Shown here: piece after piece, positions 4,144-36,654 of the stretch | Position numbering within the stretch: position 1 is the stretch's first letter | Layout: every line of letters starts with the position of its first letter | From: Salinivenus sp. | GTDB lineage: Bacteria > Bacteroidota > Rhodothermia > Rhodothermales > Salinibacteraceae | Reading direction: 5' to 3' | Length of the DNA: 39,279 bases | Assembly (NCBI GenBank): GCA_018609755.1 | Contig: JAHENZ010000088.1 | Location: forward strand, 1-39,279 | Position numbers and translations under genes: made by a program | The notes under the pieces: generated by a model | Seen by the model: the letters and a program-made list of their open reading frames with translations, nothing else | Database searches by the model: none | What the model was told of the DNA's origin: nothing

Positions 4144-4242
4144 GACGGTATCCGGTCAATTCAACGGTTGTCGGCAAGTCTGAGCGTCGGAAATTCTTTT
4201 CGGGACGTATTGCCTATTGCGGATCTGTAAGGGAGTGTCAAC

Positions 4243-4270
4243 GCAATACGCAACACGAAATACGCGATTC
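4243..4270 (-). repeat. heptameric short tandem repeat after nuoM
   Basis: On the minus strand, 19 bases after the nuoM stop: GAATCGC, GTATTTC, GTGTTGC, GTATTGC. Plus-strand bases 4247-4264 (TACGCAACACGAAATACG) are identical to 6053-6070 in the nuoL-nuoM gap. A complementary stretch near 4207-4222 (CGTATTGCCTATTGCG) could pair with it to form a hairpin. Confidence 0.65.
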
Positions 4271-5918: not shown

Positions 5919-5999
5919 GAGCAGTCGGTTACCGCAAAAACGTCAGAAACAGTTCGTAATCGTCGTTCATCGGGAATTTCCCCCAACGCGCAGAAGCAG

Positions 6000-6070
6000 T
6001 GCGTAATTTGTATTCCGTATCTTGAGGTCGCCAGTGGTCCGAGTTTCGGATCTACGCAACACGAAATACG
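6000..6070 (-). repeat. repeat-bearing nuoL-nuoM gap with heptameric units
   Basis: On the minus strand, 6069-6049 reads GTATTTC, GTGTTGC, GTAGATC, about 35 bases after the nuoL stop. Bases 6053-6070 duplicate the 18 bases at 4247-4264. At 6003-6021 similar sequence occurs in opposite orientation (a CCGTAT/ATACGG pair brackets the middle), so the transcript could fold back. It probably belongs to the same family as the repeat after nuoM. Confidence 0.55.
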
Positions 6071-6104
6071 GACCATGCAATATCAGGGCACTTCGACTTC
6101 GGCT

Positions 6105-12266: not shown

Positions 12267-12443
12267 AGCCAATTCGTAAACGAGAAAATTGTACTCGACG
12301 ATTCGTACAAGCAACCTGCCGACATGGCCGAATGCAACCAGCGCCGCCCGTCCCTCCCCAACCTTCTCAATAACAAAAGCGCCGCCCCGCCCGAACACAG
12401 TCGGGTAGAGCGGCGCCGTGATTTCTCGAGAGTGTGTCAGTGT

Positions 12444-12485
12444 CGAACTCCACAATCCACACTCCCCATTCGAAATTCCACAATC
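12444..12485 (-). repeat. heptameric short tandem repeat after ahcY, 6 units
   Basis: Starting two bases after the ahcY stop, the minus strand reads GATTGTG, GAATTTC, GAATGGG, GAGTGTG, GATTGTG, GAGTTCG: six consecutive 7-base units all fitting GANTNNS. This is one of the two clearest members of the family. Confidence 0.75.
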
Positions 12486-12487
12486 GA

Positions 12488-13765
12488 TCAGGTGCCAGCG
12501 GAGTAGTCCGTGGCGTAGTGCTCCTGCTCCTCGGAGAGGCCGTCGATCTCGACGCCCATCGTGTTGAGCTTCACGCGGGCGATCTCGTCGTCCATCTCCT
12601 GCGGGATGTCGTAGACCTTGTCCTCCAGCATCTCGCCGGACTCATGGCGCTGGACGAGGTCGAGGTGGGCACGAAACTGGTTGGCGAAGCTCATGTCCAT
12701 CACCTCGCTCGGGTGTCCTTCCGCCGCAGCCAGGTTCACGAGCCGCCCGTCGCCGAGCACGTAGACCCGGTCGCCGTTCTCCTTCGTGTACTCACGGTTG
12801 TTGTCGCGCACTTCACGGGCGTCGATGGAGAGGTCGGCCAGCTCTTCGAGGTTGAGCTCCACGTCGTAGTGGCCCGTGTTCGCGACAATCGCACCGTCCT
12901 TCATCTTCAGGAAGTGACGGCCGCGGATCACGTCCTTCATGCCGGTGGCCGTCACGAAGATGTCGCCCTTCTCGGCGGCCTCGTCCATGCTCATGACCTG
13001 ATGGCCGTCGAGCGTGGCCTTGAGAGCGGTGGCGGGCCGCACCTCGGTGACGATCGTGTTGGCGCCCATGCCCTTCGCCCGAGTGGCGACGCCGCGACCG
13101 CAGTGGCCGTAGCCGGCGACGACGAAGTTCTTGCCCGCTATGAGCGTGGAGGTTGCGCGCAGGATGCCGTCGATGGTGCTCTGCCCCGTACCGTAGACGT
13201 TGTCGAAGTCCCACTTCGTCTCGGCGTCGTTGACGGCGTAGACCGGATACTGCAGCTTGCCGTCGTTGTCCATCGCGCGGAGGCGATGCACACCGGTCGT
13301 CGTCTCCTCACTGCCGCCGATGATGTCGTCCATCATCTCCGGGTGATCGGAGTGGACCGTAAAGATAAGGTCCGCTCCGTCGTCGAGCGTCAGGTGCGGC
13401 GGCGTGTCAATGGTGCGCTCGATGCACCAGTAAAAGTCGTCGGTGTCGAGGCCGTGCCAGGCGTAAATTTCCGTGCCGTTGTTGGCGAGGGCGGCCGCAA
13501 TGTCGTCCTGCGTCGAGAGCGGATTGCAGCCGCTCCAGGCCACCTCGGCGCCACAAGCCTGCAGGGTCTCGACGAGCACCGCCGTCTCTTTCGTTACGTG
13601 GAGACAACCGGCAATCTTATAGCCCTCAAACGGCTTCGAGTCGGAATATTCCTCGCGCAGTTGCATGAGGACGGGCATGCGGCTTTCCGCCCATTCAATG
13701 CGCTTCCGCCCTTCGTCGGCCAGACTGAGGTCTCGAACTTTGTATTGTCCTTCCTTGTGATCCAT
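12488..13765 (-). CDS. ahcY: S-adenosylhomocysteine hydrolase
   Basis: Reversibly cleaves S-adenosylhomocysteine to adenosine and homocysteine, relieving product inhibition of methyltransferases. The 425-residue protein has substrate-site segments GCLHVTKETAVL (about residues 53-64) and KWDFDNVYGTGQS (about 184-196), the NAD-binding loop VVAGYGHCGRG (about 215-225) and the conserved C-terminal end with HYATDY. Length matches the shorter bacterial/archaeal type without the mammalian insertion. The NAD loop reads GHCGRG where many homologues have GDVGKG. It is very acidic, as in halophiles. It is preceded by a long leader that could be structured and followed at once by a heptad repeat. Confidence 0.96.
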   Translation of the reverse strand: MDHKEGQYKVRDLSLADEGRKRIEWAESRMPVLMQLREEYSDSKPFEGYKIAGCLHVTKETAVLVETLQACGAEVAWSGCNPLSTQDDIAAALANNGTEIYAWHGLDTDDFYWCIERTIDTPPHLTLDDGADLIFTVHSDHPEMMDDIIGGSEETTTGVHRLRAMDNDGKLQYPVYAVNDAETKWDFDNVYGTGQSTIDGILRATSTLIAGKNFVVAGYGHCGRGVATRAKGMGANTIVTEVRPATALKATLDGHQVMSMDEAAEKGDIFVTATGMKDVIRGRHFLKMKDGAIVANTGHYDVELNLEELADLSIDAREVRDNNREYTKENGDRVYVLGDGRLVNLAAAEGHPSEVMDMSFANQFRAHLDLVQRHESGEMLEDKVYDIPQEMDDEIARVKLNTMGVEIDGLSEEQEHYATDYSAGT

Positions 13766-17369: not shown

Positions 17370-17690
17370 ATGCGGCGCGTAGGGACGTTTCTGATTCGGC
17401 TACCTCGTCTCTTGTTCATCGGACTCGTGCGGGCGTACCAGTTGCTTCTATCCCCCCACATGCCCAGTACGTGTCGCTTCCACCCGACCTGCTCACAATA
17501 TGCCATCCAGGCCTTCCGAAGATACGGAGCGATCCGCGGCCTCATCCTAACCGTGTACCGCCTGGGGCGATGCCATCCCTGGGGCGGCCACGGCTACGAC
17601 CCGCCCCGCTGGTTCGGCGAACCGGTCCCCGAATCCCCCTCTACGAACGAAAGCCAACTCCGCAATCCAACATCCGAACTCCAAAATTGA
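17370..17690 (+). CDS. yidD: membrane protein insertion efficiency factor YidD
   Basis: Small membrane-associated protein that helps YidC insert inner-membrane proteins. The 106-residue protein has an amphipathic N terminus (LPRLLFIGLVRAYQLLLSP) and the family signature CRFHPTCSQYAIQAFRRYG (about residues 33-51) followed by RLGRCHPWGGHGYDPP. A GAGAGG ribosome site lies 10 bases before the ATG. Unusually it is not beside rpmH-rnpA-yidC. The last 12 or so residues (NESQLRNPTSELQN) are encoded by the reverse strand of a heptameric repeat that belongs to the convergent VWA gene, so the tail is probably unconserved. Confidence 0.92.
   Translation: MRRVGTFLIRLPRLLFIGLVRAYQLLLSPHMPSTCRFHPTCSQYAIQAFRRYGAIRGLILTVYRLGRCHPWGGHGYDPPRWFGEPVPESPSTNESQLRNPTSELQN
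17654..17688 (-). repeat. heptameric short tandem repeat after the VWA gene
   Basis: Starting five bases after the VWA gene stop, the minus strand reads AATTTTG, GAGTTCG, GATGTTG, GATTGCG, GAGTTGG. The units fit the GANTNNS pattern seen after ahcY and fdxA. The repeat overlaps the 3' end of yidD, coding its tail on the other strand. Confidence 0.7.
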
Positions 17691-19738: not shown

Positions 19739-20353
19739 ATGAGCACTGATGCCGACGTACGTTCCGAGCGCGAGCTGGTCGAGAAGGTGTTGGACGGGGA
19801 CCGAGACGCCTTCCTCGCATTTATCGACCGATACGAGCGCCTCGTAAAGCACGTCGTCTTCCGAATGGTGGATGACGACCGGGATCGCGAGGAGCTGTGT
19901 CAGGACGTGTTCATGCGGGCGTACCGCTACCTGGACGATTTTCGGTTCGAGTCAAAGCTGTCAACCTGGCTGGCGCGCATCGCCCGAAACACGTGCCTCA
20001 ATCACCTGGAGAAGAAGGACATGCCGCTGTATGCGGACCATGCCCCTGCGCCCGACGACGAATCGCCCGACGCCCGGGCGGCCCTCAATCGCATCGAGGA
20101 TCCGGACGAAGACGTGGCCGATGCAGCGTCCGACCGTGAGCGTCGTGCGTTGGTCCGCGAGGGCATCAAGACCCTTTCGGAGCACTACCGAACGGCACTC
20201 ACCTTGTATCATTTGGAGGGAATGAGCGTATCACAAATCAGCGACATTATGGAGAACCCCGAGGGCACGGTGAAGAGTCACCTGTACCGGGGCCGCAAAA
20301 AACTCAAAGACTGGCTGCTCGACCGATACAGTCAGGAGGAACTGACCCTATGA
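19739..20353 (+). CDS. ECF-type RNA polymerase sigma factor
   Basis: Directs RNA polymerase to a specific promoter set, likely for envelope or stress functions. The 204-residue protein has sigma region 2 (ERLVKHVVFRMVDDDRDREE, then LCQDVFMRAYRYLDDFR, about residues 31-68) with the STWLARIARNTCLNHL core, an acidic linker, and region 4 (LSEHYRTALTLYHLEGMSVS, then ISDIMENPEGTVKSHLYRGR, about 145-190) forming the -35 binding helix-turn-helix. Its stop overlaps the start of the next gene as ATGA, indicating translational coupling with a probable anti-sigma factor. Confidence 0.93.
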   Translation: MSTDADVRSERELVEKVLDGDRDAFLAFIDRYERLVKHVVFRMVDDDRDREELCQDVFMRAYRYLDDFRFESKLSTWLARIARNTCLNHLEKKDMPLYADHAPAPDDESPDARAALNRIEDPDEDVADAASDRERRALVREGIKTLSEHYRTALTLYHLEGMSVSQISDIMENPEGTVKSHLYRGRKKLKDWLLDRYSQEELTL

Positions 20354-20802
20354 ATGACCGTGACCGCTCGCTCCAAGATGAGTTTGACCGCCACTTCCGT
20401 GGCGACGGCCCCCCGCCTGACACCGACAATCGGGAGGCGGCGGCCTATCAGGCCGTCTTTTCCGCCCTTCAGGACGAGCCGGAGGGCGACCTACCGGACG
20501 ACTTTGCGGAGCGTGTGGCCGACCGGGTGAGCCTCCGCCCTGAGCCCTCCATCGTGTGGAGCGACGTCCTGCTCCTCGTCCTGACCGTAGCGGCCGCCGG
20601 TGCCACCCTCGTCCTGATGCCGTCCGTGCACACGATCCTGGAAGAAACGGTGTGGGTGATCGCCCGCTCGTTCGGGGACCTCTCCTCATACGTCCGCCTG
20701 GACGTCATGGCCGCCGCCGGGCTCGTGCTACTCCTTACCCTCGGCCTCGATGCCCTACTGCGCCGCTGGCGCCCCCTGCGCCACGCCCCGACCGCCCCCT
20801 AA
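20350..20802 (+). CDS. probable membrane anti-sigma factor
   Basis: A 150-residue protein: acidic cytoplasmic N-terminal 65 residues, then hydrophobic helices at about 70-92 and 117-137, ending in a basic tail (LLRRWRPLRHAP). Coupling by ATGA overlap to the sigma factor and this topology suggest it holds the sigma factor at the membrane. I see no zinc-binding HxxxCxxC motif, so it is not a classical ZAS-type anti-sigma. Assignment rests on context. Confidence 0.6.
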   Translation: MNDRDRSLQDEFDRHFRGDGPPPDTDNREAAAYQAVFSALQDEPEGDLPDDFAERVADRVSLRPEPSIVWSDVLLLVLTVAAAGATLVLMPSVHTILEETVWVIARSFGDLSSYVRLDVMAAAGLVLLLTLGLDALLRRWRPLRHAPTAP

Positions 20803-20835
20803 TTTCGGATTGTGGATTTTGGAGTGTGGAATTAG
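20801..20835 (+). repeat. heptameric short tandem repeat after the anti-sigma gene
   Basis: Beginning within the stop codon: AATTTCG, GATTGTG, GATTTTG, GAGTGTG, GAATTAG. The units fit the GANTNNS pattern and run in the gene's direction, here on the plus strand. The rest of the gap to 21067 is pyrimidine-rich with no gene. Confidence 0.75.
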
Positions 20836-21067
20836 ACTGTTGCTTGTTGGATGCAAAAGGAGGAACGGTCTCCTCCCAACTGCCTTTCTCGCTTCGATTC
20901 TTCGTTCTCCACCATTCATCTCTGCACGACCTTCAATCCTCCACCCTCGCCCTTCGCCCCACGCCTCTCGCCCCTCGATCCTCTCCAACATCGGCTTGCG
21001 CAGCATCGCCATGACAGTTATCCTTTCGGGGTGATGTCGACTCTTCGAATCATCCCCATTGCCACTC

Positions 21068-36612: not shown

Positions 36613-36654
36613 TTTCCTCCCCATTCGCCACTCGCAATTCGAAACTCGAAATTC
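36613..36654 (-). repeat. heptameric short tandem repeat after fdxA, 6 units
   Basis: Starting two bases after the fdxA stop, the minus strand reads GAATTTC, GAGTTTC, GAATTGC, GAGTGGC, GAATGGG, GAGGAAA. Five of six units fit GANTNNS exactly. Same pattern and same position relative to the stop as the repeat after ahcY. Confidence 0.75.

Follow-up and report, generated by a model that had tools for sequence, protein, structure and literature searches.

Degenerate heptad arrays abut gene ends and change dialect at persistent sites in Salinivenus

The intergenic DNA of Salinivenus sp. contains short arrays of degenerate heptads that follow a fixed grammar, abut the edges of coding sequences, and form convergent pairs whose two arms vary independently of each other. 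The sites persist across congeners while the letters of the heptads, or their whole dialect, turn over. We suggest tentatively, at less than even confidence, that these arrays are extragenic recognition tracks at transcript ends, in which the letters are free and the grammar is kept for a putative factor.

Heptad runs in the window

The window (the whole stretch of 39,279 nt that we analysed) belongs to a 5.0-Mb assembly in 328 contigs, the source genome (G000). A sequence-only reading had noticed runs of GANTNNS heptads just past several stop codons. The run past ahcY is present (Table 1), as are those after fdxA, the VWA gene (where a single unit is imperfect), and the gene that ends at 20802; GTATTTC/GTGTTGC runs follow nuoM and nuoL at the claimed distances, while the run said to precede the PH-like gene was not located. 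The gene ending at 20802 had been called an anti-sigma gene, and this identity is unsupported (no Pfam match). On the minus strand, the ahcY run reads GATTGTG-GAATTTC-GAATGGG-GAGTGTG-GATTGTG-GAGTTCG.

Table 1. Heptad arrays and associated features in the window
Feature	Coordinates	Strand	Remarks
Six heptads, mostly G-ending dialect, single array	12444..12485	-	2 nt after ahcY stop
ahcY (adenosylhomocysteinase)	12488..13765	-	Compared with relatives
Intrinsic terminator, GC-rich hairpin and CTTTTG	12374..12417	-	Downstream of ahcY run; counterpart in congeners
Five heptads, partly imperfect	17654..17688	-	5 nt after stop of VWA-domain gene
Five heptads	20801..20835	+	Overlaps or adjoins stop of gene 20350-20802; counterpart at orthologous site in congener G009
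Five heptads, C-ending dialect	36620..36654	-	1 nt after ferredoxin (fdxA-like) stop
GTRNTNC-dialect array	4243..4270	-	19 nt after nuoM stop
Inverted partner of nuoM array (reverse complement CGTATTGCCTATTGC)	4206..4220	+	Read from sequence
GTRNTNC-dialect array after nuoL	6056..6083	-	35 nt past nuoL; two strict units at 6056-6069, two weaker before
Degenerate inverted partner of nuoL array	5995..6019	+	Read from sequence

The best named relatives of AhcY are from a Salinibacteraceae MAG (82%) and from other Bacteroidetes/Rhodothermales MAGs, and the congeners are at 92-98%, which places the organism in the Rhodothermales, within or close to Salinibacteraceae. The C-terminal residue is the same in relatives, so the run leaves the protein unaltered. 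In the gap behind ahcY, G-type runs are found in the source genome and in G009, and remnants in G012 and G001. Congeners with and without the run have the intrinsic terminator beyond it. Because the true terminator lies beyond the run, we rejected the run itself as the terminator.

No Rfam family matched the window at its gathering score. In the window, nuoN is also followed, at 2225-2301, by a tandem repeat of 35 bp (2.2 copies, 92%), and there is a CCCTCGC stretch of period 7 at 20944-20977, in the same gap as the array at 20801-20835.

Period-7 arrays across the genome

Four consecutive GANTNNS heptads match the whole source genome 94 times, as compared to 0 matches for the reversed pattern. 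For a survey of arrays and genes, we took stretches amounting to about 1 Mb of the source genome, with genes called by a hexamer model, and 1.15 Mb of G009. Some source contigs were picked for holding matches, so densities in this sample are not genome averages; the placement and orientation statistics are independent of that choice. In the sample of about 1 Mb, there were 56 intergenic loci of period 7, as compared to 0-1 for periods 4, 5, 6, 9, and 10 and 21 for period 8, and 65 of 67 runs with at least three units were intergenic. The heptad runs are real and not due to chance, and period 7 dominates the intergenic DNA. A scored array detector (score of at least 16) reported 99 arrays, as compared to 1 in the reversed sequence; we used the 91 that are intergenic.

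The units are not near-identical, but vary at positions 3, 5, and 6. More than half of them (158 of 282) are of the C-type dialect. G-type units have GG every 7 nt, while the C-ending units and those of a further dialect, GTRNTNC, have no recurring G-tract. The GTRNTNC dialect has 51 matches in the genome, as compared to 0 for the reversed pattern, and includes the nuoM and nuoL runs.

The period-8 loci are a separate intergenic family of GTGTGGGN-like octads (21 loci in about 1 Mb, as compared to none in coding sequence). Examples in the source genome are at C222:106, C26:15958, and C1:7370, and in the rpsI-rpsB gap at C277.

Arrays adjoin coding edges

The 5' ends of the arrays lay no more than 15 nt from a coding edge in 62 of 91 cases, as compared to 21.8 +/- 3.7 if position and strand are drawn at random within the same gaps. 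Only 2 of the 91 arrays had their 3' ends this close. Divergent gaps held 0.22 arrays per kb, as compared to 0.61 in tandem gaps. Gaps of at least 200 nt contained 14 flush arrays, and 13 of these were at a stop in the sense orientation. Thus, the fixed direction after stops that the sequence-only reading had described holds for single arrays in long gaps. It does not hold overall: the 5' side of the array faces a stop in 46 of the 91 cases and a start in 45, a near-equal split that arises because many arrays are paired with a second, convergent arm. The reading had also named what would refute it, namely runs that are no more frequent after stops, or no more often in sense, than elsewhere in intergenic DNA. 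We ran this test and found an excess of arrays at gene edges and sense orientation at stops in long gaps, so the claim survived.

Some arrays provide the stop codon themselves, via GAATAGC, GAATGAC, or CAGTGAC units. We rejected a preferred stop codon as the target site: TAG accounts for 17 of 40 stops, as compared to 273 of 798 genome-wide (p = 0.30). The dialects differ in layout: C-type arrays are mostly paired and in gaps of under 150 nt, while G-type arrays are mostly single and flush to the stop in longer gaps.

Paired arms converge but do not co-vary

Among neighbouring arms at most 120 nt apart, 25 pairs were convergent (+/-), with just 1 pair in each of the other arrangements (++, --, and -+). 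The paired element consists of CANTNNC-(GANTNNC)3-GANTNNG, a loop, and an inverted copy, and it fills the space from the stop of one tandem gene to the start of the next. The modal arm has five units, CANTNNC-(GANTNNC)3-GANTNN(G/A), of which the first and last are special, and the loop between arms is 1-44 nt (median 14). The sequence-only reading, which put most runs just after stop codons, missed this pairing; the nuoM and nuoL runs also face inverted partners.

Identity between paired arms at the variable positions (3, 5, and 6) was 0.443, as compared to 0.445 +/- 0.02 when arms were swapped between elements. Because the arms of an element are no more alike than random arms, we rejected stem pairing as the conserved feature. 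Compared with dinucleotide shuffles, paired elements do fold better (z mostly -2 to -6), but this excess is expected from the fixed positions alone. We also looked for a U-tract (TTTT no more than 10 nt outward from an arm) and found it in only 1 of 25 paired elements; with the tract missing in 24 of 25 and a separate terminator at ahcY, we rejected the idea that the elements are intrinsic terminators. Terminators were found in 3 of 17 gaps with arrays and in 39 of 310 gaps without, which is no difference.

Sites persist across congeners while dialects change

G009 has about 80% nucleotide identity to the source genome, and nine orthologous gaps could be compared: in G009, five have the same kind of array, two have the other dialect, and two have none. 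Just a few percent of the gaps in G009 hold arrays, which, as a rough inference, makes the two dialect switches unlikely to be due to independent insertions. Directly after the stop of rpsI, in the rpsI-rpsB gap, the array is C-type in the source genome, G009, G008, and G005, but G-type in G002, and G001, G003, G004, and G007 have decayed elements. In the gcvH-guaA gap, the source genome and G008 have C-type arrays, while G009 has GTRNTNC-like arrays. In the ftsL-ftsI gap, the source genome has the element, G009 has a shorter version of it, and the other congeners have none.

For the left arm at rpsI, the congeners that keep the element (G009, G005, and G008) showed 21 differences from the source genome at variable positions and 2 at constant positions, as compared to 29 and 26 in G001, G003, G004, and G007. 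This contrast, which concerns one locus (the rpsI 3' end), gives p = 0.0015 by Fisher's test and p = 0.001 by a binomial test that allows for ascertainment. The first group is rich in GANTNNS matches genome-wide (35 in G009, 6 in G005, and 25 in G008) and the second is poor (7 in G001, 0 in G003, 0 in G004, and 1 in G007), although the grouping is soft because G005 and G001 are borderline. G003 also has 26 matches to GTRNTNC. One orthologous arm (C12) runs counter to this contrast: it hardly differs from species to species, and the sole change is at a constant position.

The rpsI-rpsB gap also contains, upstream of rpsB, a stretch that is conserved across the genus (ATCATACGGCCCGATGYGACAGTGGGTTGACC ... 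GACGGTCGTAGTAG; L323-L332). It is perhaps a ribosomal-protein leader RNA.

Wider distribution

Runs of the same pattern occur in 27 of 41 relatives and in named genomes from the Ignavibacteria, Anaerolineae, Desulfobulbaceae, and Kuenenia. Of 148 genomes sampled from the phylum, 52 have them as well, and many of these match the reversed pattern too. Since perfect 7-bp arrays of other sequence also score in several of the genomes (the reversed control is nonzero), the count across phyla includes plain tandem repeats besides arrays that follow the grammar. The relatives G032, G018, and G022 contain long perfect 7-bp arrays. In the relative G031, the reversed control pattern matches 661 times, which implies a different heptad dialect in large numbers. 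In the Anaerolineae genome G085, dispersed repeats with GANTNAC heptads share non-heptad flanks (L295, L298, L304, L312, and L322) and also hold GTGATGC-type heptads in reverse.

What might maintain the arrays

The conserved feature of these small extragenic elements is the heptad grammar (GANTNNC, GANTNNG, or GTRNTNC). A track comprises around five units with its outer end abutting a coding edge; in short tandem gaps two tracks converge, while in long gaps one track stands alone behind the stop. We infer that a putative nucleic-acid-binding factor reads the fixed positions (G, A, T, and C/G every 7 nt) and that they are kept for this reason, although their apparent conservation is inflated by our having selected arrays by the grammar itself. 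The sequence between the fixed positions would not matter. Reading would most likely take place in the 3' UTR or the intercistronic spacer of the transcript, with a putative role in mRNA-end processing or stability; alternatively, a putative activity might keep rewriting the fixed positions at gene ends. A role at transcript 3' ends, as the sequence-only reading proposed, may exist, but at ahcY the terminator is separate, and of the paired elements 1 in 25 has a U-tract. About half of the arrays adjoin starts instead of stops, and we found no protein that reads or writes the tracks, both of which count against our reading. Furthermore, the same pattern could result from repeated regeneration without any function. 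We also considered a trans-acting factor of sporadic, cross-phylum distribution that would read or write the 7-nt grammar (GANTNNS and its sister dialects) at gene ends, so that the grammar would be a heritable signal and arrays would decay once the factor is lost; we regard this as distinctly improbable.

The main rival to recognition tracks is neutral turnover of tandem repeats, by slippage and local duplication, with repeats surviving only where they disrupt no coding sequence or promoter and so collecting after stops and in short operon gaps. Turnover of this kind would fit the long perfect arrays in G032, G018, and G022, the wide spread of other-sequence heptads in the phylum, and the depletion of arrays from divergent gaps. 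We think it unlikely because the degenerate units still obey the fixed positions, the modal arms have five units of which the outermost two are special, pairing is convergent by 25 to 1, and outer ends lie no more than 15 nt from a gene edge in long gaps too. A transposase that inserted mobile, MITE-like or REP-like elements at gene ends would account for inverted, extragenic pairs that are present or absent between species, for the growth of the ftsL-ftsI gap from a few nt to about 70, and for the dispersed repeats with shared flanks in the Anaerolineae genome. However, arms in the source genome are no more similar than column-permuted arms and near-identical copies are missing, so we rejected recent transposition within this genome. 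The 10 nt that lie 5' of an arm have no consensus such as a GTAG/GGAG-like foot, and by eye we saw no target-site duplications in the flanks of paired elements (no strain is close enough to offer a clean empty site). We also rejected the RAYT/Y1 transposase (PF01797) as a partner: it is absent from array-bearing G009, G011, G022, and G032, and two copies are present in array-free G003. The targeted insertion that had been proposed thus finds neither a flank consensus nor recent copies, though sites do persist while dialects change, and we consider mobile elements to be quite unlikely.

The paired arms might instead act as RNA hairpins, either as bidirectional terminators or as barriers to 3' exonucleases. 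Their folding scores and their location at 3' ends and between tandem genes agree with this, but the arms do not co-vary, U-tracts are rare, G-type arrays are mostly unpaired, and the ahcY run has a terminator of its own; we find this explanation very doubtful. G-quadruplexes, which were proposed for similar repeats in Xanthomonas (PMC4692102), would suit the shared register and placement and the GG every 7 nt of the G-type. But the C-type and GTRNTNC dialects, which use the same kind of site, do not have a recurring G-tract. For these dialects, quadruplexes appear to be largely excluded by the letters themselves, and as a general explanation they are extremely unlikely.

Comparison with known repeats

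Heptameric repeats are known from several groups of bacteria, with no agreed function. The heptanucleotide repeats of cyanobacteria (STRR) have period 7 and are intergenic, as here. The sequence-only reading saw a likeness in period; the likeness goes beyond period, as the Nostoc unit GGGGA(C/T)T is GACTGGG/GATTGGG in our register and fits GANTNNS. However, the cyanobacterial arrays are near-perfect, while our units differ at positions 3, 5, and 6. REP/BIME elements, which are associated with RAYT, are short, inverted, and extragenic, and they lie at 3' ends and between the genes of operons. Our arrays are similarly inverted, extragenic, and located at 3' ends and in operon spacers, but without a tetranucleotide foot, arm co-variation, or co-occurrence with RAYT. 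The TAACTGA repeats of marine Beggiatoaceae are intergenic heptamer arrays that occur sporadically across phyla, including Bacteroidetes, but they consist of one exact heptamer, lie mostly upstream of start codons, and have no degenerate grammar (PMC4679880). Our literature searches found no report of the arrays in Salinibacter or Rhodothermus.

The Rhodothermales arrays are close to the Xanthomonas GGGAATC/(GGGANTN)n heptamers in period, grammar, paired arms, and placement at stops and starts. The Xanthomonas repeats have period 7 and mostly four units, form 70-75 convergent pairs per genome, and are mostly transcribed; they lie in sense within 50 bp of stops and antisense within 50 bp of starts, and are depleted in genes and between divergent genes; in a comparison of two species, 83% of them were conserved in position (Rehm et al. 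2015, PMC4692102). Stop-proximal sense placement, which the sequence-only reading took as a distinguishing mark, was therefore already on record. Since GGGANTN is GANTNGG in our register, the two kinds of repeat agree closely in grammar, geometry, and placement, down to the GANT core. In contrast to Xanthomonas, GA is preceded by either C or G, with no GGG tract retained; the modal arm has five units and begins with a CANT unit; and a second dialect (GTRNTNC) coexists, with whole dialects replacing each other at orthologous gaps. We also tested for co-variation of the arms, which goes beyond the Xanthomonas report, and found none. The C-ending dialect, which lacks G-tracts, argues against the quadruplex explanation given for Xanthomonas. 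Thus, the Rhodothermales arrays separate traits that coincide in Xanthomonas: they can do without G-tracts and without complementarity at variable positions, but they retain the 7-nt grammar, the paired geometry, and the contact with gene edges, even as dialects swap at a given gap. The question thus becomes the narrower one of what reads or writes a period of 7 nt at the ends of genes, and the array-rich and array-poor congeners offer ground for the search.
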